From Hydrogenophaga crocea (GTDB lineage Bacteria; Pseudomonadota; Gammaproteobacteria; Burkholderiales; Burkholderiaceae_C), in the NCBI RefSeq assembly GCF_011388215.1, contig NZ_CP049989.1, positions 4,497,132 to 4,561,131 of the forward strand: DNA of 64,000 nt, written 5' to 3'. The notes below the pieces were generated by a model that saw nothing but the letters and a program-made list of their open reading frames with translations, had not been told where the DNA came from and made no database searches. The position numbers and the translations under genes are program-made. Positions 46,673-53,622 of the stretch are shown here, piece by piece (within the stretch, counting starts at the first letter, position 1; each line of letters starts with the position of its first letter).

Positions 46673-46701
46673 ATTCTCAAGTGGACACACCTGAGTGTCA
46701 A
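46673..46701 (-). promoter_or_regulatory. Predicted sigma-70 promoter of bchG
   Basis: On the - strand, TTGACA (46701-46696), 17 bp, then GAGAAT (46678-46673), 5 nt before the bchG ATG. The -35 hexamer is part of the PpsR palindrome, so repressor binding would block polymerase. The start site would fall at or next to the start codon. Confidence 0.55.
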
Positions 46702-46713
46702 TTGATATTGACA
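46696..46713. promoter_or_regulatory. PpsR/CrtJ binding site between bchG and the ppsR paralog
   Basis: GTGTCAATTGATATTGACAC (46695-46714) contains a perfect TGT-N12-ACA site with extended symmetry. PpsR/CrtJ binds this consensus to repress pigment genes in air. It serves the divergent pair bchG (-) and ppsR paralog-bphP (+). Confidence 0.85.
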
Positions 46714-46801: not shown

Positions 46802-48208
46802 ATGAATCCCTCGAACCTGTCCGCGCCGGATCTCGGGCCCCTGTCCCCTTGGGCCCCTGAACTCGCGCAGGCGTTCGTCACCCTGGCCAGCGACATCGCG
46901 CTGGTGATGGACGAGCAGGGCGTGATCCGCACCGTGGCCCAGGGCCGCCACGGCAGCGACGAGGCCATGCTGCCCGGGGCCCGCAGCTGGGTCGGCCGCC
47001 GCTGGGTCGACACCGTCTCGCCCGACACGCGCGCCAAGGTCGACCAGCTGCTCACCGAGGTGGCCCGCACCGGCCTCGCGCGCCGCCGCGAGCTCAGCCA
47101 CCCGCTCGACGAAGGCGCGAGCGTGGCCGTGGCCTACACCGCGGTGCGCCTGGGCCAGGACGGCCCGGTGCTGGCCGTGGGCCGCGACCTGCGCGCCATC
47201 GGCGCCATCCAGCAGCGCTTTCTCGAAGCCCAGCGCGACATGGAGCGCGGCTACTGGCAGGCGCGCCAGGCCGAGGCGCGCCACCGCCTGCTGCACCAGG
47301 TGGCCAGCGATACCGTGCTGCTGATCGACGCCGCCGAGCGCCGCATCACCGAGGCCAATGCCGCGGCGATCGACCTGTTCGGCACGCCGGCCGAGCACCT
47401 CGTGGGGCACGCGCTGTCGGGCTTTCTGCTGCAAACGCACCGCCAGGCCTTCGACGACCTCGCCGTGACGGTGCTGCACACGGCCCAGGCCGCCGAGATC
47501 CGCATCCGCCTGATCAACCACAGCACGCCGGCCAGCCTCGCGCTCACGCCCCTGCCCGGCGAGGGCCGGGCGCTGCTGCTGGCGCGCGTGCGGCTGGCCG
47601 AGCAGCCCGGGACCGCGGCCCAGCTCCACCAGACCCTGGCCCGGTTGGGCGACGGCGTGGCCGAGGCGGTGCTGGTGACGGATTCGGCCGGCCACGCGCT
47701 CATGGCCAACGCGGCCCTGCTGCGCCTGCTGAACCTCGGCGACGAGCGCGACGTGAAGGGCCGGCACCTGGCCGATTGGTTCGAGGTCGCCGGGGGCGGG
47801 CTCGACGCACTGATCCGCCGCGTGCGCCGCAGCGGCATGGCCGTGCGCGAGCCCGCACGGCTGCTCGCGGCCGACGCACGCGCCCTCCCTGTCGAGCTGT
47901 CGGCCTCGCTGCTGTCCGAGGGCGACATGGAGTGCATCGGCTGGTCCGTCGGCCGCCTGGGGCCTGCGGGCGCCGCCAGCGGCGAGGCCCTGCAGAGCGC
48001 GCTCACCGCGCTCGCGGGCCAGGTGGGCGAGCTGCCGCTGCCCGAGCTCATGCGCGAGGCGGCCTCCCTGATCGAACGGCATTTCATCGGCCTGGCCCTG
48101 GAGCGCGCGCACGAAGACCCCGCCGCGGCCGCGCGCCTGCTGGGCGTTTCAGAACAGCGCATCGGCGGCTTGCCTGGCGGCGTTCCGCCCCTTCCGGAGA
48201 CACCCTGA
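46802..48208 (+). CDS. PpsR paralog with PAS domains but a degenerate DNA-binding end
   Basis: This 468-aa protein follows PpsR throughout: N-terminal PAS (TLASDIALVMDEQGVIR), the AIQQRFLEAQRDMERGYWQ helix matching Q-linker/PAS sequence in the canonical PpsR, PAS2 (SDTVLLIDAAERRITEANAA) and PAS3 (VTDSAGHALMANAALLRLL). The C-terminus reads DPAAAARLLGVSEQRI and then GGLPGGVPPLPETP, where PpsR has SRQSLYVKLRRFGL; the recognition helix is absent. The redox cysteine of PpsR is Phe428 here. ATG 46802 aligns with the family; TTG 46730 or ATG 46742 are alternatives. The phytochrome gene starts 1 nt after its stop, so they are co-expressed. Confidence 0.85.
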   Translation: MNPSNLSAPDLGPLSPWAPELAQAFVTLASDIALVMDEQGVIRTVAQGRHGSDEAMLPGARSWVGRRWVDTVSPDTRAKVDQLLTEVARTGLARRRELSHPLDEGASVAVAYTAVRLGQDGPVLAVGRDLRAIGAIQQRFLEAQRDMERGYWQARQAEARHRLLHQVASDTVLLIDAAERRITEANAAAIDLFGTPAEHLVGHALSGFLLQTHRQAFDDLAVTVLHTAQAAEIRIRLINHSTPASLALTPLPGEGRALLLARVRLAEQPGTAAQLHQTLARLGDGVAEAVLVTDSAGHALMANAALLRLLNLGDERDVKGRHLADWFEVAGGGLDALIRRVRRSGMAVREPARLLAADARALPVELSASLLSEGDMECIGWSVGRLGPAGAASGEALQSALTALAGQVGELPLPELMREAASLIERHFIGLALERAHEDPAAAARLLGVSEQRIGGLPGGVPPLPETP

Positions 48209-48209
48209 C

Positions 48210-50414
48210 TTGAACGAAGAGCCGGCGTTCGGGGATGCCGACCTCAGCAACTGCGAGCGCGAGCTGATCCACCTTGCGGGGTGCATACAGCCGCACGGGG
48301 TGCTGCTCACGCTGCACGGCCCGGCGCTGCGCATCGTGCAGGCCAGCGGCAACACCGCCGCCTTGCTGGGCCGCCCGTTCGACGCCCTGCTGGGCCAGCC
48401 GCTGGCGGCGCTCGACGCCGGCCTGGCCGACGCGGTGAACACCGCCTTCCCCGAGCCGCTGCCCGAACCCGCCACGCTGCCGCAGGCCTGCGCGCTTGCG
48501 GTGAACGGCCGCGAGTTGCCCTTCCTGGCCACGGTGCACGACCGCCAGGGCTGTCGCGTGCTCGAACTCGAGCCGCGCCCGGCCGCGGGCGACACGGCCG
48601 CGGCCATCGAATGCGCCGAGCTGCCGCCCGATCTGCTCATGCAGCACCTGGGCGAGTCGGTGGCGCGCCTGAGTGCGGCCACCAGCGTGGGCACGCTGTG
48701 CGACGCCGTGGTGCGGCGCCTGCGCGACCTCACCGGCTACGACCGCGTCATGGTCTACCGCTTCGACCCCGATGGTCACGGCAAGGTGGTGGCCGAGGCG
48801 CGCGACCCGCGGCTCGAATCGCTCATGGGCCACCACTACCCGGCCAGCGACATCCCGCAGCGCGCGCGCGACCTGTACCTGCTCAACCGCGTGCGCGTGC
48901 TGGTCGACGTGAACGCGACCGCGGCCGACCTCGTGCCGCGCGCCGTGCCCGAGCTCGGCGGCGAGCTCGACATGTCGCACTGCCGGCTGCGCAGCATGTC
49001 GCCGCTGCACCTGCAGTACCTGCGCAACATGGGCGTCACGGCCACGCTGGTGGTGTCGCTGGTGCGCGATGGCGGGCTCTGGGGCCTGGTGGCCTGCCAC
49101 CATTACCAGCCGCGCCGCCTGAGCGCGCCGCTGTGGGCCGCCATCGAACTGCTCGGCGAGCTCGTGGCCACGCGCATCACCGCGATCGAAAGTTATGCGC
49201 ACGCGCAGGTGGCGATCCAGGTGCGCCGTCTCGAGCAGCGCCTGATTGAGGCCACCTCGAGCGAAGGCGACTGGCGCATGGCGCTGTTTCGCAACCCCGC
49301 GGCGCTGCTGCAGCCGGTGGATGCCGACGGCGCCGCGCTGTACTGCGACGGCGAAATGCTCACGGCGGGTGAGGTGCCTTCCACCCCCGAGCTGCGCCGC
49401 CTGCTGCAGTGGGTGCAGGAGCGTGTGGCCCACGGCGGCTGCGACGACGGCCTGTTCAGCTGCACCTCGGTCGCGCGCGCCGCGCCCGAGCTCGCGAGCC
49501 TCACGCCGCACGCGGCCGGGGTGCTCGCGGTGCCGCTGTCGGCCTCGCCTGGCGACCTGCTGGTGTGGCTGCGCAAGGAGCAATTGCAAAGCATCACCTG
49601 GGCCGGCGACCCGCACAAGCCCGTGGTGGGCAACGACCCGCTAACGCTGTCGCCGCGGCGCTCGTTCGCGGCCTGGTCCGAGATCGTGCGCGACACCGCG
49701 CGCCCCTGGTCCGAGGGTGAGAAGGCGCTCGCGCGCGCCTTCGGCCGCTCGCTGGCCGACATCATCGTGCAGGTGAACTGCGTGCGGCTGCTGATCGCTG
49801 AGCAGCAGCTGCGCCAGACGCGCGGCCGCGTGGCCGAGGTGAGCAAGGCCCTGCTGCTGCTCGACGACCGCCTGCAGGTGCTGTTCGCCAGCCCCAGCCT
49901 GTTCGAGATGGCCGGCCATGCGCCGCTGCCCGCGCGCCACCTGCACGAGCTCGCGCCCGTGCTCGGCGACGTACCGCAGCTGCTGGCCCACCTGCAGCGC
50001 CTGGCCGTTGAGCGCCGCGCGCACAGCCAGGGCTGGCGGCTCGGTGCCGGGTCCGGCCCGGGTGTCGAGGTCTCGCTGCGCATCGAGGTGGTGCCGGGGC
50101 GCGATGGCGGCGTGCTCGGCCACTTCCTGGTGTTCGACGACCTCGGCGACGCGCGCCGCGCCAGCGACGCGCGCGAGCGCCTCAATGCCCTGCTCGAGCG
50201 CAGCCTGCAGCGCCCGGGCGATGCGGCGCCCACGCCCGACGGCGGCGGCGTGCCCGACCCGCTGCTGGGCGCCATGCTCGCGAGCGCGCACATGGCGGCC
50301 ATGGACGTGGCCGACGCGGGCTCGCTCGCCATCGTGGGCCGCCTGCTCGAAGAGGTCGACGCCTCGACGCGGCGCGCCACCCAGCTCTACGACCGCCTGC
50401 GCCGCCTGGGCTGA
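48210..50414 (+). CDS. bphP: Bacteriophytochrome, BphP1-like, without a histidine kinase domain
   Basis: This 734-aa red/far-red photoreceptor has PAS, GAF and PHY domains. The biliverdin cysteine is Cys15 (SNCERELIHLAG); PASDIPQ (DIP at 214-216) and MSPLHLQYLRNMG are the GAF chromophore contacts; the PHY tongue has the PRRSF motif and WAGDPHKPV. The C-terminal 220 residues hold a PAS-like segment (LLLLDDRLQVLFASPSLF) and helices, with no H-box or ATPase boxes. That resembles Rhodopseudomonas BphP1, which works by binding PpsR2. The start is TTG 48210 with GGAG upstream. It is co-transcribed with the PpsR paralog and converges on bphO with a 1-nt gap. Confidence 0.93.
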   Translation: MNEEPAFGDADLSNCERELIHLAGCIQPHGVLLTLHGPALRIVQASGNTAALLGRPFDALLGQPLAALDAGLADAVNTAFPEPLPEPATLPQACALAVNGRELPFLATVHDRQGCRVLELEPRPAAGDTAAAIECAELPPDLLMQHLGESVARLSAATSVGTLCDAVVRRLRDLTGYDRVMVYRFDPDGHGKVVAEARDPRLESLMGHHYPASDIPQRARDLYLLNRVRVLVDVNATAADLVPRAVPELGGELDMSHCRLRSMSPLHLQYLRNMGVTATLVVSLVRDGGLWGLVACHHYQPRRLSAPLWAAIELLGELVATRITAIESYAHAQVAIQVRRLEQRLIEATSSEGDWRMALFRNPAALLQPVDADGAALYCDGEMLTAGEVPSTPELRRLLQWVQERVAHGGCDDGLFSCTSVARAAPELASLTPHAAGVLAVPLSASPGDLLVWLRKEQLQSITWAGDPHKPVVGNDPLTLSPRRSFAAWSEIVRDTARPWSEGEKALARAFGRSLADIIVQVNCVRLLIAEQQLRQTRGRVAEVSKALLLLDDRLQVLFASPSLFEMAGHAPLPARHLHELAPVLGDVPQLLAHLQRLAVERRAHSQGWRLGAGSGPGVEVSLRIEVVPGRDGGVLGHFLVFDDLGDARRASDARERLNALLERSLQRPGDAAPTPDGGGVPDPLLGAMLASAHMAAMDVADAGSLAIVGRLLEEVDASTRRATQLYDRLRRLG

Positions 50415-50415
50415 T

Positions 50416-51078
50416 TCAGGCCGGCGCGCCGAGCGCGTCGAACAGCCGCAGGTGCTGCTCGAAGGCCCACAGCGCTTCGTCCACCGCGGCATCGGCCTCG
50501 GCGCCCTCGGCCGGCAGCGCGGCCAGTGCGGTGCGCAGGCGCTGCGCCAGCGCGTCGCGCTGCTCGGCGCTGCCGAAGTCGTAGAAGCTCAAGCCCGCGG
50601 CAGGCGTGGCCGACCCGTGGCCCGCGAAAGCGCGCGCCAGCACGCGCTGCAGGATCTGCCCGCCGCTCAGGTCGCCCAGGTGGCGCACGTAGACGTGGGC
50701 CAGCAGCCGCGCGTGCGGCTGTGGCGATGCGCCGTCGATGGCGGCGAGCCGCTCGACGTAGGCGGCCGTGGCCGGCAGCGGCGCCGCCGGGCCCAGGCCG
50801 AAGGCGGTGAGGTCGGCGCGCAGGGCCTGCCGCCGCGCCAGCGCCGGCGACCAGGCGCCAGCCAGCCAGGGGTGCTGGCCGCGCGCGGCCACGCGCGGCT
50901 CCAGGGCCTCGTACACGAGCAGCAGTTGCTGCAGCAGCCGGCCGTAGAGCGCCCGGCCCGCGCGCCCGGCGATCAGCGCCTGCATCAGGGGCGTGCGCTC
51001 GGCCTCGCGGTGGGCGCCGGCCGTTTGCGTGCGCAGCCGCTGGGCGAGCGAGCCGGCCGCCGGCTCACTCGCCGCCAT
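50416..51078 (-). CDS. bphO: Biliverdin-producing heme oxygenase
   Basis: This 220-aa enzyme opens heme to biliverdin, the phytochrome chromophore. The proximal heme ligand is His23 in TAGAHREAE, and the distal helix has the family glycine motif YVRHLGDLSGGQIL. Length is normal for HmuO/BphO enzymes. Its start lies 14 nt inside the end of ppsR, so it is coupled to the repressor gene, while its stop meets the bphP stop tail to tail. It should supply biliverdin to the phytochrome. Confidence 0.93.
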   Translation of the reverse strand: MAASEPAAGSLAQRLRTQTAGAHREAERTPLMQALIAGRAGRALYGRLLQQLLLVYEALEPRVAARGQHPWLAGAWSPALARRQALRADLTAFGLGPAAPLPATAAYVERLAAIDGASPQPHARLLAHVYVRHLGDLSGGQILQRVLARAFAGHGSATPAAGLSFYDFGSAEQRDALAQRLRTALAALPAEGAEADAAVDEALWAFEQHLRLFDALGAPA

Positions 51079-52507
51079 CGGCGAGCCCGAAGCGGCGCAG
51101 CTTGACGTACAGGCTCTGGCGCGAGAGCCCCAGCATTTCCGCCGCCGAGGCCCGGTTGTCGTTGGTGAGTGCCAGCGCGGCCTCGATGCACAGCTGCTCG
51201 ATCAGGTCGGTGGTTTCGCGCACGATCTCGCGCAACGGCACGCGGCCCACGAGCTCGGTCATCTGGTCGGCCGAGCGCGGCAGCTCGCGGCCCCCGGCCA
51301 CGGGTTCGGCGGCCAGGCGGCGGCCGATGTCGCGGATGGCGAAGCCCATGGCGGGCAGCTCGCCGCCCGCGGCCGCGGCCGAAATCTCGACGTCGATGCC
51401 CGCGCCGTACTCGGTGCGCAGCCGCGTGGCGTACAGGCGCACCTCGCCACGCTGGCGCAGGTTGGACATGAGCACGTTGAGGTCGAGCCCGCCGCGCTCG
51501 AACCAGCGTTCCAGCGACTGGCCCGTGACGCGTTCTTCGGTGGGCAGTTGCACCAGATCGAGGAAGGCGCGGTTGGCGGCCTGCACCAGGCCGTCGGGGC
51601 CCGTGACCACGAAGGCGTCGGGCGAGAGCTCGGCCAGTTGCGCCAGGCGTTCGCGGCGCGGGTCTTCGGTGGGCGCACCGGCGCCGTTGAACAGCACGCG
51701 CAGCACGAGCTGACCGCTGGCGCCCTGGCGGATCAGGTGGCCCTGCAGATCGACCGGCTTGCTGCGGCCCACCAGGCGCACGCGCCGCGCCTCCGACTTG
51801 CCCGTGGCCTGCAGCTGCGCGAGCAGCGCCTGCAGGGCCGTGCGGCTGGCGGCTTCCACGCCGTCGGCCAGGCGCCAGCTGCTGCGTTGCAGGGCCTCGC
51901 CGAACAGCTGGTGGGCCGCGGTGTTGGCGTCTTGCAGCTTGAGCGAATCGGCGTCGAGGATCAGCAGCGCGTCGCTCGCGGTCTGGAACAGCAGGCGGTG
52001 GCGGTTCTCCACCTGGCGCAGTTGCCAGTAGTCGCGTTCCATCGAGGCCTGCGCGCTCACCAGGCGCTGCTGCACCGCGGCCGGGCCGCGCAGGTCGCGG
52101 CAGAACACCACGGCGGGGCGGCCCTTGCGGTTGCCGCGCGCGGGCAGCGGCACGATCACGCAGTCGAGCGGCAGATCGGTTTCGCCGGTGTGGGGATGGT
52201 TGATCTGGCGCGGCTTGGCGTCGGTCTGGCCGTCGAGCGCGAGGCGCAGCAGGTCGTCGACCTTGGGCTGGCTTTCGACCGTGACGGTGTCGCGCCAGGC
52301 CTGACCGACCCAGGCCGTGACCAGGGGCTCGGGCAGACCGGACTGGCCGAGCGCGGCGTCGCGCACCACGCCTTTTTCATCGATCAGCAGCACCAGGTCG
52401 CTGGCCGCGCCGAGCAGATCGGCCACGGTGCGGGCGTCGAGATCCGACAGGAAGGCCTGAGGCTTGGAGAAGCGCTTGGCGCTTTTCGCCGGGAGCCCCT
52501 TGGACAT
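51065..52507 (-). CDS. ppsR: PpsR/CrtJ, redox-responsive repressor of photosynthesis genes
   Basis: This 480-aa repressor of bch, crt and puc genes under oxygen has an N-terminal PAS (ASDLVLLIDEKGVVR), a Q-linker (AVQQRLVSAQASMERDYWQ), PAS2 (SDALLILDADSLKLQDANT), PAS3 (SPDAFVVTGPDGLVQAANR) and a Fis-type helix-turn-helix (RASAAEMLGLSRQSLYVKLR). Cys440 in IEQLCIEAAL corresponds to the redox-active C-terminal cysteine of CrtJ/PpsR. ATG 52507 is chosen; a GTG at 52549 is possible. It is downstream of aerR by about 50 nt and overlaps bphO. Its sites are visible before bchG and bchF. Confidence 0.94.
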   Translation of the reverse strand: MSKGLPAKSAKRFSKPQAFLSDLDARTVADLLGAASDLVLLIDEKGVVRDAALGQSGLPEPLVTAWVGQAWRDTVTVESQPKVDDLLRLALDGQTDAKPRQINHPHTGETDLPLDCVIVPLPARGNRKGRPAVVFCRDLRGPAAVQQRLVSAQASMERDYWQLRQVENRHRLLFQTASDALLILDADSLKLQDANTAAHQLFGEALQRSSWRLADGVEAASRTALQALLAQLQATGKSEARRVRLVGRSKPVDLQGHLIRQGASGQLVLRVLFNGAGAPTEDPRRERLAQLAELSPDAFVVTGPDGLVQAANRAFLDLVQLPTEERVTGQSLERWFERGGLDLNVLMSNLRQRGEVRLYATRLRTEYGAGIDVEISAAAAGGELPAMGFAIRDIGRRLAAEPVAGGRELPRSADQMTELVGRVPLREIVRETTDLIEQLCIEAALALTNDNRASAAEMLGLSRQSLYVKLRRFGLADGGE

Positions 52508-52559: not shown

Positions 52560-53375
52560 TTAACGTGGCAATTGCTGGAGAAAGCGCAGCGCGAGCGCTG
52601 GCGCCTGCGCGGCGTCCGCGAGCGCGAGGTCGGCGCCCAGCGCGCCGTGCAGCGCGGGCCGGGCGTGGAAGGCCGCGCCGCCCACGAGGACGCCGATGCG
52701 CGGGTTGCGCGAGGCACTGCGCACCTGCGCGATGGTGCGCTGCAGGGCCTCGGCGTGCACCTCGGCCGCGAGCGAGAAGCCCACCAGGTCGTACCAGTGC
52801 CGGCCCACCGATCGCACCGGGTCGCTTCCGGCTTCGGTGGGGCCGCCGTGCACGTCCCAGCCCGCGTGGCGGAAGAACTCGGCCACCATGAGCAGGCCCA
52901 GCGAATGCTGCTCGCGCGGTGCCGGCGCGAGCAGCACGCGGCGGCCATCGCCCACGGGCTGCAGCGCGAGGTCGCGCGAGAGGCTGTGGTCGCGCAGCAG
53001 CTGCTGCAGCCGGCCCGCGCCCAGCGTCACGTCGGTGAAGCTGCACTCGTCCACCTCCCACCACTCGCCGAGCAGGCGCGCGGCGGGCGTGACCAGGTCG
53101 AGGTAGAGCGATTCGATCGACAGGCCGCGGCGGCGCTGGAGCTCGACGTGCTCGAAGGCGGGGGCGGGGTCGGGCGCGAGCAGCAGGCGGGCGAAGGCCG
53201 TGACCGCGGGCTCGGAGAGGGCTTCGGCGGGCGGGGCGGACGGGTGCGGGCGGTGTGCCTCGATCAGCCGCGGAATGATGCTGCGGTTGAGCGTCTGGCT
53301 CAGCACGCTCGCATGGCCTTGGCCGATCGCCACAGGCGCGGCGTGTGCAGGTTCGGGGGTGCTCAACATGATCAT
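52560..53375 (-). CDS. aerR: AerR/PpaA, cobalamin-binding regulator of PpsR
   Basis: This 271-aa protein pairs with PpsR in purple bacteria. The N-terminal half is helical (MH1-like, SIESLYLDLVTPAARLLGEW, EVDECSFTDVTLG). The C-terminal half is a B12-binding fold with LLAPAPREQHSLGLLMVAEF, GWDVHGGPT (a reduced DxH cobalamin motif) and IGVLVGGAAF. In Rhodobacter, AerR binds cobalamin and acts as a light-dependent antirepressor of CrtJ. The aerR-ppsR order is conserved. ATG 53375 (GAGGACAC upstream) is chosen; ATG 53369 is possible. It is divergent from bchF. Confidence 0.9.
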   Translation of the reverse strand: MIMLSTPEPAHAAPVAIGQGHASVLSQTLNRSIIPRLIEAHRPHPSAPPAEALSEPAVTAFARLLLAPDPAPAFEHVELQRRRGLSIESLYLDLVTPAARLLGEWWEVDECSFTDVTLGAGRLQQLLRDHSLSRDLALQPVGDGRRVLLAPAPREQHSLGLLMVAEFFRHAGWDVHGGPTEAGSDPVRSVGRHWYDLVGFSLAAEVHAEALQRTIAQVRSASRNPRIGVLVGGAAFHARPALHGALGADLALADAAQAPALALRFLQQLPR

Positions 53376-53419
53376 TGGTTGTGTCCTCTCGCCGCGAAAG
53401 CGCATCGCTGAGGCACGAA

Positions 53420-53439
53420 CCTTTGACCAGGGCCAAAGG
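53420..53439. promoter_or_regulatory. Inverted repeat upstream of aerR
   Basis: CCTTTG (53420-53425) and CAAAGG (53434-53439) with an 8-bp spacer, 45 bp before the aerR start. It resembles a regulator site, but I cannot assign the protein. Confidence 0.3.
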
Positions 53440-53588
53440 AGGGCGCGTTCAGTGCGGGCCAGTCGTCCCACCGGTGCCCACCGGCCACCGGTTTGTCTCC
53501 CCGGGCACCAACCGCGCTTCTACGCTCCTTGGCGACTGCCGTCAAAGGCGGGCGATGAGCGCGACGGTCCCGTGGATGACATGTTAAG

Positions 53589-53622
53589 TGTCAATTTGAG
53601 ATGACGTCAATATCGGTTGACA
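53589..53622. promoter_or_regulatory. Two overlapping PpsR/CrtJ sites before bchF
   Basis: TGTCAATTTGAGATGACG (53589-53606) and CGTCAATATCGGTTGACA (53605-53622) each match TGT-N12-ACA with one mismatch and overlap by 2 bp, 16 bp apart. The second contains the TTGACA -35 element of bchF. Confidence 0.75.

Follow-up and report, generated by a model that had tools for sequence, protein, structure and literature searches.

What does a PpsR-like protein do once it has lost the helix by which PpsR recognizes DNA, and why is its gene placed immediately upstream of a bacteriophytochrome? The question is raised by a locus of Hydrogenophaga crocea, contained in a stretch of 64,000 nucleotides (contig NZ_CP049989.1, positions 4,497,132 to 4,561,131), referred to in the following as the window. 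The protein and its relatives are called PpsRL. The features of the window needed here are listed below.

46696..46713, no strand: TGTCA-N8-TGACA, a PpsR-type palindrome without mismatch, in the gap from bchG to PpsRL
46802..48208, + strand: PpsRL, with N-PAS, Q-linker, PAS1, PAS2 and Fis-type helices 1-2, without recognition helix
47189..47308, + strand: Q-linker helix (residues 130-169; AlphaFold), where conservation within the family is highest (alignment)
48038..48142, + strand: first two Fis-like helices, still present: residues 413-435 and 440-447 (AlphaFold)
48146..48205, + strand: residues 449-468, a mostly disordered Gly/Pro tail in place of the recognition helix (alignment, frames, AlphaFold)
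48210..50414, + strand: bphP, a PAS-GAF-PHY-PAS phytochrome, no kinase domain found
about 50178-50411, + strand: HOS-like C-terminal helices of bphP
50416..51078, - strand: bphO, heme oxygenase for the chromophore
51065..52507, - strand: canonical ppsR, recognition helix intact, the presumed target
52560..53471, - strand: B12-binding regulator (Pfam B12-binding), which we take to be of the AerR/PpaA kind
53589..53622, no strand: two overlapping palindrome copies with one mismatch each (starts 53589 and 53605), between aerR and the next gene

A PpsR-like protein without recognition helix

The reading frame at 46802-48208 (+) is open and encodes 468 aa, with the C-terminus ...SEQRIGGLPGGVPPLPETP. 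The alignment with canonical PpsR covers the first two Fis-like helices, after which SEQRIGGLPGGVPP replaces SRQSLYVKLRRFGL. The PAS-family matches of the window PpsRL resemble those of PpsR, and the N-PAS, Q-linker, PAS1, PAS2 architecture of the NCBIfam family PpsR-CrtJ (TIGR02040) is present. The score against this family is 265.1 bits, just below the cut-off of 275.4, compared with 454.1 for the window PpsR; one other PpsRL, in genome G467, scores 314. The HTH_8 domain (PF02954) is found in the window PpsR (51065-52507, -) with 38.6 bits, and is absent from the window PpsRL at E<=0.1. The position of the redox Cys, Cys440 in the window PpsR, is occupied by Phe428, as the initial annotation had read it.

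Structures were predicted by using AlphaFold. The model of the window PpsRL (52 sequences, mean pLDDT 79.5, pTM 0.50) contains, besides the PAS array, a long Q-helix at 130-169 and helices at 413-435 and 440-447, followed by a four-residue stub (451-454) and by residues 456-468 with a pLDDT <50; in the model of the window PpsR (17 sequences, mean pLDDT 72.9) a third helix is formed at 462-471. The best PDB matches of the PpsRL model, obtained by Foldseek, are R. sphaeroides PpsR chains. The reported loss of the helix, with the PAS regions and the early Fis-like domain kept, is thus seen in the alignment, in the HTH_8 search and in the modelled C-terminus.

A recognition helix was not found in the other two forward frames between 48120 and 48300, and the relatives P0003-P0014 carry the same kind of tail; among them P0003 and P0004, which share 84-85% of their residues with the window PpsRL, are intact. 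For these reasons a frameshift or sequencing error is ruled out; a simple frameshift had already been rejected in the initial annotation.

By these features of sequence and model, the window PpsRL is predicted to have no promoter DNA binding of its own. Strictly defined, the PpsR repressor family does not include it: its score is below the cut-off, a complete Fis-type HTH with recognition helix is missing (by HTH_8, signature residues and AlphaFold), and so is the redox Cys. The last is a weak criterion, because this Cys is also missing from alphaproteobacterial PpsR2 and from some alphaproteobacterial PpsR.

PpsRL proteins form one clade

A protein search identified 819 relatives, the best 120 of which, ranked by likeness to the window protein, were used. 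A scan of genome contigs with the single window protein as query gave no match; an alignment-based scan identified 50 named loci in 49 host genomes. Trees were built on the columns before the HTH domain only. The branch separating PpsRL from PpsR received an SH-aLRT of 99 in a tree of 117 rows, and 97/98 in a tree of 78 rows to which alphaproteobacterial PpsR1 and PpsR2 had been added. PpsRL is one clade of PpsR paralogs in phototrophic Burkholderiales; it is real, old, widespread and under selection.

The recognition residues S, R, Q, Y and K occur together in 122/122 other PpsR rows (57/57 Burkholderiales PpsR, 21/21 alphaproteobacterial PpsR2, 44/44 other alphaproteobacterial PpsR) vs 0/175 PpsRL rows. 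The absence of the canonical helix is therefore not confined to the window, but extends to the whole clade, and being common to it, the loss goes beyond chance. The 175 rows are divided into 146 "eroded" and 29 "helix-like" ones, none of either with the signature. The eroded set consists of 117 of the 120 best-matching homologues (minus P0002, P0119 and P0121) and 29 locus rows, among which L064 is counted although it stands with the helix-like group on the tree; broken, cut or duplicate rows (such as L024, L037, L039, L051, L077 and L080) and L073 were excluded as well. The proteins of L003 and L069 are identical, as are those of L004 and L071. Helix-like ends resemble TPESLxLRLxRHGL (Rubrivivax, Ideonella, Aquabacterium and others) and keep the hydrophobic core of helix 3 in 23 of the 29 rows, a share which is partly circular, since the group was assigned by eye from the C-termini; the five-residue signature is independent of this assignment.

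In the 78-row tree, the clade of the window comprises 27 of the 44 PpsRL rows, with support 100/100. None of its rows has the helix core, which is found in 14 of the remaining 17. On this tree one change accounts for the signature, and the helix core requires at least four within PpsRL; this fits a single early event by which the contact residues were lost and after which the helix eroded. Erosion proceeds by degrees: HTH_8 is still weakly matched by 20/52 relatives at E<=0.01, and some eroded rows have Arg-rich ends.

A few loci deserve separate mention. The PpsRL proteins of L003 and L004, from the window's genus, have helix-like ends and fall on a distant branch; two lineages of the PpsRL module are thus found in this genus, and horizontal transfer is possible. 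Genome G093 carries two separate PpsRL-BphP pairs (L064 and L070). The PpsRL fragment L077 lies on a contig titled Rhodospirillales, in a genome with reaction-centre genes, and may reflect a binning error or a transfer. PpsR-type proteins were found in 9 plasmid records, with a best identity of 32%.

Constraint and decay

Mean pairwise identities were calculated after thinning to 75%, for 65 eroded PpsRL, 23 locus and 34 Burkholderiales PpsR rows; values for locus rows alone are given in brackets, because the homologue rows had been chosen by likeness to the window protein. The recognition helix shows an identity of 0.20 in eroded PpsRL (0.22) vs 0.90 in PpsR. PpsRL exceeds PpsR in N-PAS, 0.63 (0.59) vs 0.48, in the Q-linker, 0.74 (0.70) vs 0.67, and in PAS1, 0.58 (0.50) vs 0.42, and is lower in PAS2, 0.53 (0.43) vs 0.59. 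The dimer-contact Arg of PAS2 is retained in 50 of the 146 eroded rows; the window PpsRL has Gly instead. Cross identity between PpsRL and PpsR is highest in the Q-linker (0.51) and ranges from 0.20 to 0.40 in the other parts. As judged from these identities, constraint in PpsRL has moved, not vanished.

The dN/dS was estimated by the Nei-Gojobori method among relatives, in pairs which overlap, are not independent and have the window lineage outside them. It ranges from 0.03 to 0.50 across related PpsRL pairs, the upper value being reached in the helix-like group, and from 0.03 to 0.47 in one set of 11 pairs, most of them between 0.03 and 0.23. Four overlapping Polaromonas-type pairs gave 0.03-0.08, about as PpsR there (0.04-0.10); in a Piscinibacter pair, PpsRL gave 0.47 vs 0.14 for PpsR. 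Decaying copies are found as well: L080 (Piscinibacter aquaticus) is broken, and L037, L039 and L215 are shortened. According to the initial annotation, relatives with a full helix and a dN/dS near 1 would mark the window copy as a recent, isolated decay. The relatives are without the canonical helix and the related pairs stay below 1; such a decay is ruled out by the clade-wide pattern, together with the dN/dS of the relatives.

Genes accompanying PpsRL

In the window, the stop codon of PpsRL (48206-48208) and the TTG start of bphP (48210) are separated by the single base originally reported. The best PDB match of the window BphP is 4gw9 (495 bits), which is RpBphP1 according to PMC6899989; 5oy5 "BphP1" follows with 458, and the next phytochrome with 317.5. 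A kinase domain was not found by domain search, and the C-terminus retains a HOS motif of the NASLAAMDI type; among BphP rows, conservation of HOS is 0.40, below GAF and PHY. The window BphP has a Cys for Ser before IQPHG, in addition to the conserved chromophore Cys; among the BphP rows listed it is alone in this. The canonical PpsR of the window (51065-52507, -) has an end branch of 0.72-0.78, vs 0.22 in its sister at L041.

Of the two PpsR sites proposed for the window, the one at 46696 is a perfect palindrome, whereas that at 53589 resolves into an overlapping pair of copies, both with a single mismatch. In 10/10 loci where PpsRL and bchG diverge (window, L031, L034, L037, L041-L046), a TGT-N12-ACA palindrome is found in the intergenic stretch; elsewhere it is patchy (27/85 rows overall, duplicates included; background 0.075 per 410 bp). 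It may serve bchG, PpsRL or both.

In 43 of the 50 loci the gene directly downstream of PpsRL encodes BphP. The median gap is 10 bp, and the extreme values of 214 and 616 come from L037, which is shortened, and L080, which is broken. The seven loci with no adjacent BphP are L034 and L042-L046, in genomes without a BphP match, and L077, at a contig end. Among the 49 host genomes, many of them drafts, BphP was found in 43 at E<=1e-60, reaction-centre genes in 46 and canonical PpsR in 48 (at least one partial); canonical PpsR was not found in G107.

Within the window's family, in a sample partly overlapping the genomes of the named loci, 64/399 genomes have a PpsR-type match, and 31 of these 64 have PpsRL, as judged from score, identity and coverage; extra PpsR-type copies were possibly missed, since only the four best candidates per genome were scored. 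An RpBphP1-type phytochrome (>600 bits) is found in 28/31 PpsRL genomes vs 0/33 PpsR-only genomes (Fisher 4e-15, kinship not corrected for); the three exceptions are G1125, G1259 and G1292, and PpsRL is shortened in G1292. Of 297 genomes in the order of G135, one was positive for the phytochrome, at a locus truncated by the end of its contig.

Six PpsRL genomes, one of Serpentinimonas (L034) and five of Polaromonas type (L042-L046), gave no BphP match at E<=1e-60; PpsRL is retained there beside a convergent PpsR. Five of the six form one clade, whose pairs are under strong constraint, and this suggests a putative partner other than the phytochrome. In genus g466 (L217, L201 and L204), a BphP-like protein is encoded 3' of PpsRL; that of L217 is without the chromophore Cys segment, and the matches of L201 and L204 start after it. 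Three genomes of this genus have a normal phytochrome and bphO elsewhere, unlinked to PpsRL.

Relation to alphaproteobacterial PpsR2

Eight alphaproteobacterial f66 loci have the order ppsR1-bchG-pucC-bchP-ppsR2-bphP1, then bphO on the opposite strand; a similar order is described for Bradyrhizobium (PMC10569730). PpsRL occupies the ppsR2 slot of this order in seven Burkholderiales loci (L047, L054, L060, L063, L066, L075 and L078; bphO was not seen at L066), unlike the window, where the PpsRL-bphP pair faces bchG. In the eight alphaproteobacterial PpsR2, SRQSLYAKL is intact, and His-Tyr stands at a position where PpsR1 lacks His, a trait taken from these bphP-adjacent proteins because 17 of the 21 PpsR2 rows had been labelled by His-Tyr. 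In PpsRL the redox Cys is absent from 175/175 rows, and the preceding His is present in 132/175.

The best tree places alphaproteobacterial PpsR2 on the PpsR side, and a union of PpsRL with it is not rejected by the AU test (p-AU 0.358). The identity of alphaproteobacterial PpsR2 to PpsRL does not exceed that to PpsR (Q-linker 0.45 vs 0.62). In position and partner PpsRL is shown to be the counterpart of PpsR2; common descent is neither shown nor rejected.

Proposed role of PpsRL

According to PMC6899989, RpBphP1 binds PpsR2 in far-red light and antagonises its DNA binding, and does not bind it without HOS; in a model, its HOS helices pair with those of the PpsR2 HTH. A review gives Q-PAS1 as the minimal partner (PMC7555876). 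R. sphaeroides PpsR dimerises through the N-domain, Q-linker, PAS1 and PAS2, and AppA docks on its Q-linker (PMC3949515).

A preserved PpsRL without DNA helix, usually beside BphP, suggests a light signal relayed via protein contacts. With a probability of roughly 0.55, PpsRL is a counterpart of PpsR2 without specific DNA binding, acting as a light-dependent modulator of canonical PpsR. Having given up specific DNA binding, it would act at the protein level: if it cannot read DNA, its output would be a protein. PpsRL retains the N-PAS, Q-linker, PAS1 and PAS2 surfaces used by PpsR for dimerisation and docking of regulators, together with the two bundle-forming Fis-like helices. By means of these it would join canonical PpsR in heteromers with poor DNA binding, the HOS helices of BphP would bind or release it according to the Pr/Pfr state, and repression by PpsR would thereby become light-dependent. 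The sequences show that the helix is lost, that this state persists across the clade under constraint on the remaining protein, that PpsRL is linked to BphP, and that it coexists with canonical PpsR and reaction-centre genes. We infer that PpsRL touches PpsR, that BphP touches PpsRL, and in which direction the effect goes, antirepression being preferred. A PpsR-PpsRL heteromer tuned by BphP is preferred because canonical PpsR is the homologous protein nearly always present, and because genomes without a BphP match keep PpsRL beside a convergent PpsR, with strong constraint in the Polaromonas-type pairs.

Id proteins of animal bHLH factors are dimerising paralogs unable to bind DNA. An Id-like, DNA-binding-dead PpsRL, made by Burkholderiales phototrophs out of a PpsR under phytochrome control, might likewise poison or adapt PpsR in a light-dependent way and, after loss of BphP, persist as a light-independent modulator of PpsR; the chances of this extended form seem a little short of even.

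Several features speak against the preferred reading: PAS2 is not conserved above PpsR and has mostly lost its contact Arg, HTH_8 is weakly matched in 20/52 relatives, alphaproteobacterial PpsR2 is neither closer to PpsRL by sequence nor in one clade with it on the tree, HOS conservation is 0.40, no canonical PpsR was found in G107, and the gene decays in Piscinibacter and a few others. The initial interpretation is partly supported, namely in the loss of the helix, the link to the phytochrome and the analogy with BphP1-PpsR2. It did not anticipate that the whole clade shares the loss, that several loci have the gene in the ppsR2 slot of alphaproteobacteria, that one side branch retains a helix-like, non-canonical end, or that the gene persists in some lineages without the phytochrome.

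The same contacts could also work with the opposite sign. PpsR oligomerises and binds paired palindromes (PMC3949515, PMC4452267), and since the dimer surfaces of PpsRL are kept, mixed oligomers could stay on DNA through their PpsR halves while PpsRL tunes affinity or docks BphP, as an adaptor or co-repressor. The frequent loss of the PAS2 contact Arg weighs against this arrangement, which we consider unlikely, though worth keeping in mind. PpsRL might instead serve BphP only, as an output or holdase subunit directed at AerR or another protein, leaving PpsR untouched. The gap of few bp to bphP in most loci and the co-occurrence with the phytochrome in the family genomes agree with such a role; the six genomes with no BphP match at E<=1e-60, the strong constraint in the four Polaromonas-type pairs and the three g466 genomes with an unlinked BphP make it rather improbable. 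Binding to DNA with altered specificity, at least by helix-like members, could account for the helix 3 core in 23/29 rows of that group (drawn by eye), for the HTH_8 matches in 20/52 rows at E<=0.01 and for the Arg-rich ends of some eroded rows. It is very unlikely, given that canonical contacts occur in 0/175 PpsRL rows and that the window protein has neither HTH_8 nor a modelled helix, only a Gly/Pro tail. That the gene is merely decaying and soon lost, as the broken L080, the shortened L037, L039 and L215 and the Piscinibacter value of 0.47 might indicate, is hardly credible beside a dN/dS of 0.03-0.23 in most pairs, N-PAS and PAS1 conserved above PpsR, and relatives of the window protein (84-85% identity) that are intact and end in a similar tail.

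If modulation of canonical PpsR by PpsRL is true, a repressor paralog has become a regulator devoted to its own sister and acting at the protein level. The phytochrome-PpsR pairs in the portions of the literature consulted act via a DNA-binding PpsR2, and PpsRL would be a second wiring to the photosynthesis genes. A natural DNA-binding-free partner would explain the role of BphP in many Burkholderiales phototrophs, and lineages with PpsRL but without BphP make a putative action on PpsR directly testable. Beside engineered Q-PAS1, PpsRL proteins would be near-infrared interaction partners which evolution itself has freed from DNA binding.

Comparison with known systems

A PpsR without HTH was not found described in the titles and abstracts listed by the literature searches, nor in the consulted parts of PMC4452267, PMC3949515, PMC10569730, PMC10813442, PMC7844134, PMC7555876 and PMC6899989. 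PpsRL shares the three PAS domains, the Q-linker and helices 1-2 with PpsR/CrtJ (TIGR02040), and differs in the absent recognition helix and redox Cys and in the score below the cut-off.

The closest systems are RpBphP1-PpsR2 of Rhodopseudomonas and BrBphP-PpsR of Bradyrhizobium, which likewise have a kinase-less RpBphP1-type phytochrome with a PpsR paralog directly upstream. The window has both marks of a BphP1-PpsR2 pair, a kinase-less RpBphP1-type phytochrome with HOS and a partner gene directly upstream, and this operon-like link upholds the analogy drawn initially. Alphaproteobacterial PpsR2 is similar to PpsRL in the absent redox Cys, in a His mostly preceding its position and, at several loci, in its place behind bchP, but keeps SRQSLYxKL, which PpsRL is without. 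The locus is best named a variant of the BphP1-PpsR2 pair whose partner protein is predicted to be dead for DNA binding.

The engineered Q-PAS1 of PpsR2 (PMC7555876) is a phytochrome partner without DNA binding, as proposed for PpsRL; PpsRL is natural and nearly full-length, with N-PAS, PAS2 and helices 1-2 retained. Id proteins have an unrelated fold, and their likeness to PpsRL would lie in a putative dimerisation with PpsR. In the AppA-PpsR and AerR-CrtJ antirepressor pairs, PpsR is relieved by a photoreceptor through protein contact, as proposed here; unlike in those pairs, the go-between in the PpsRL system would be a paralog of PpsR itself.
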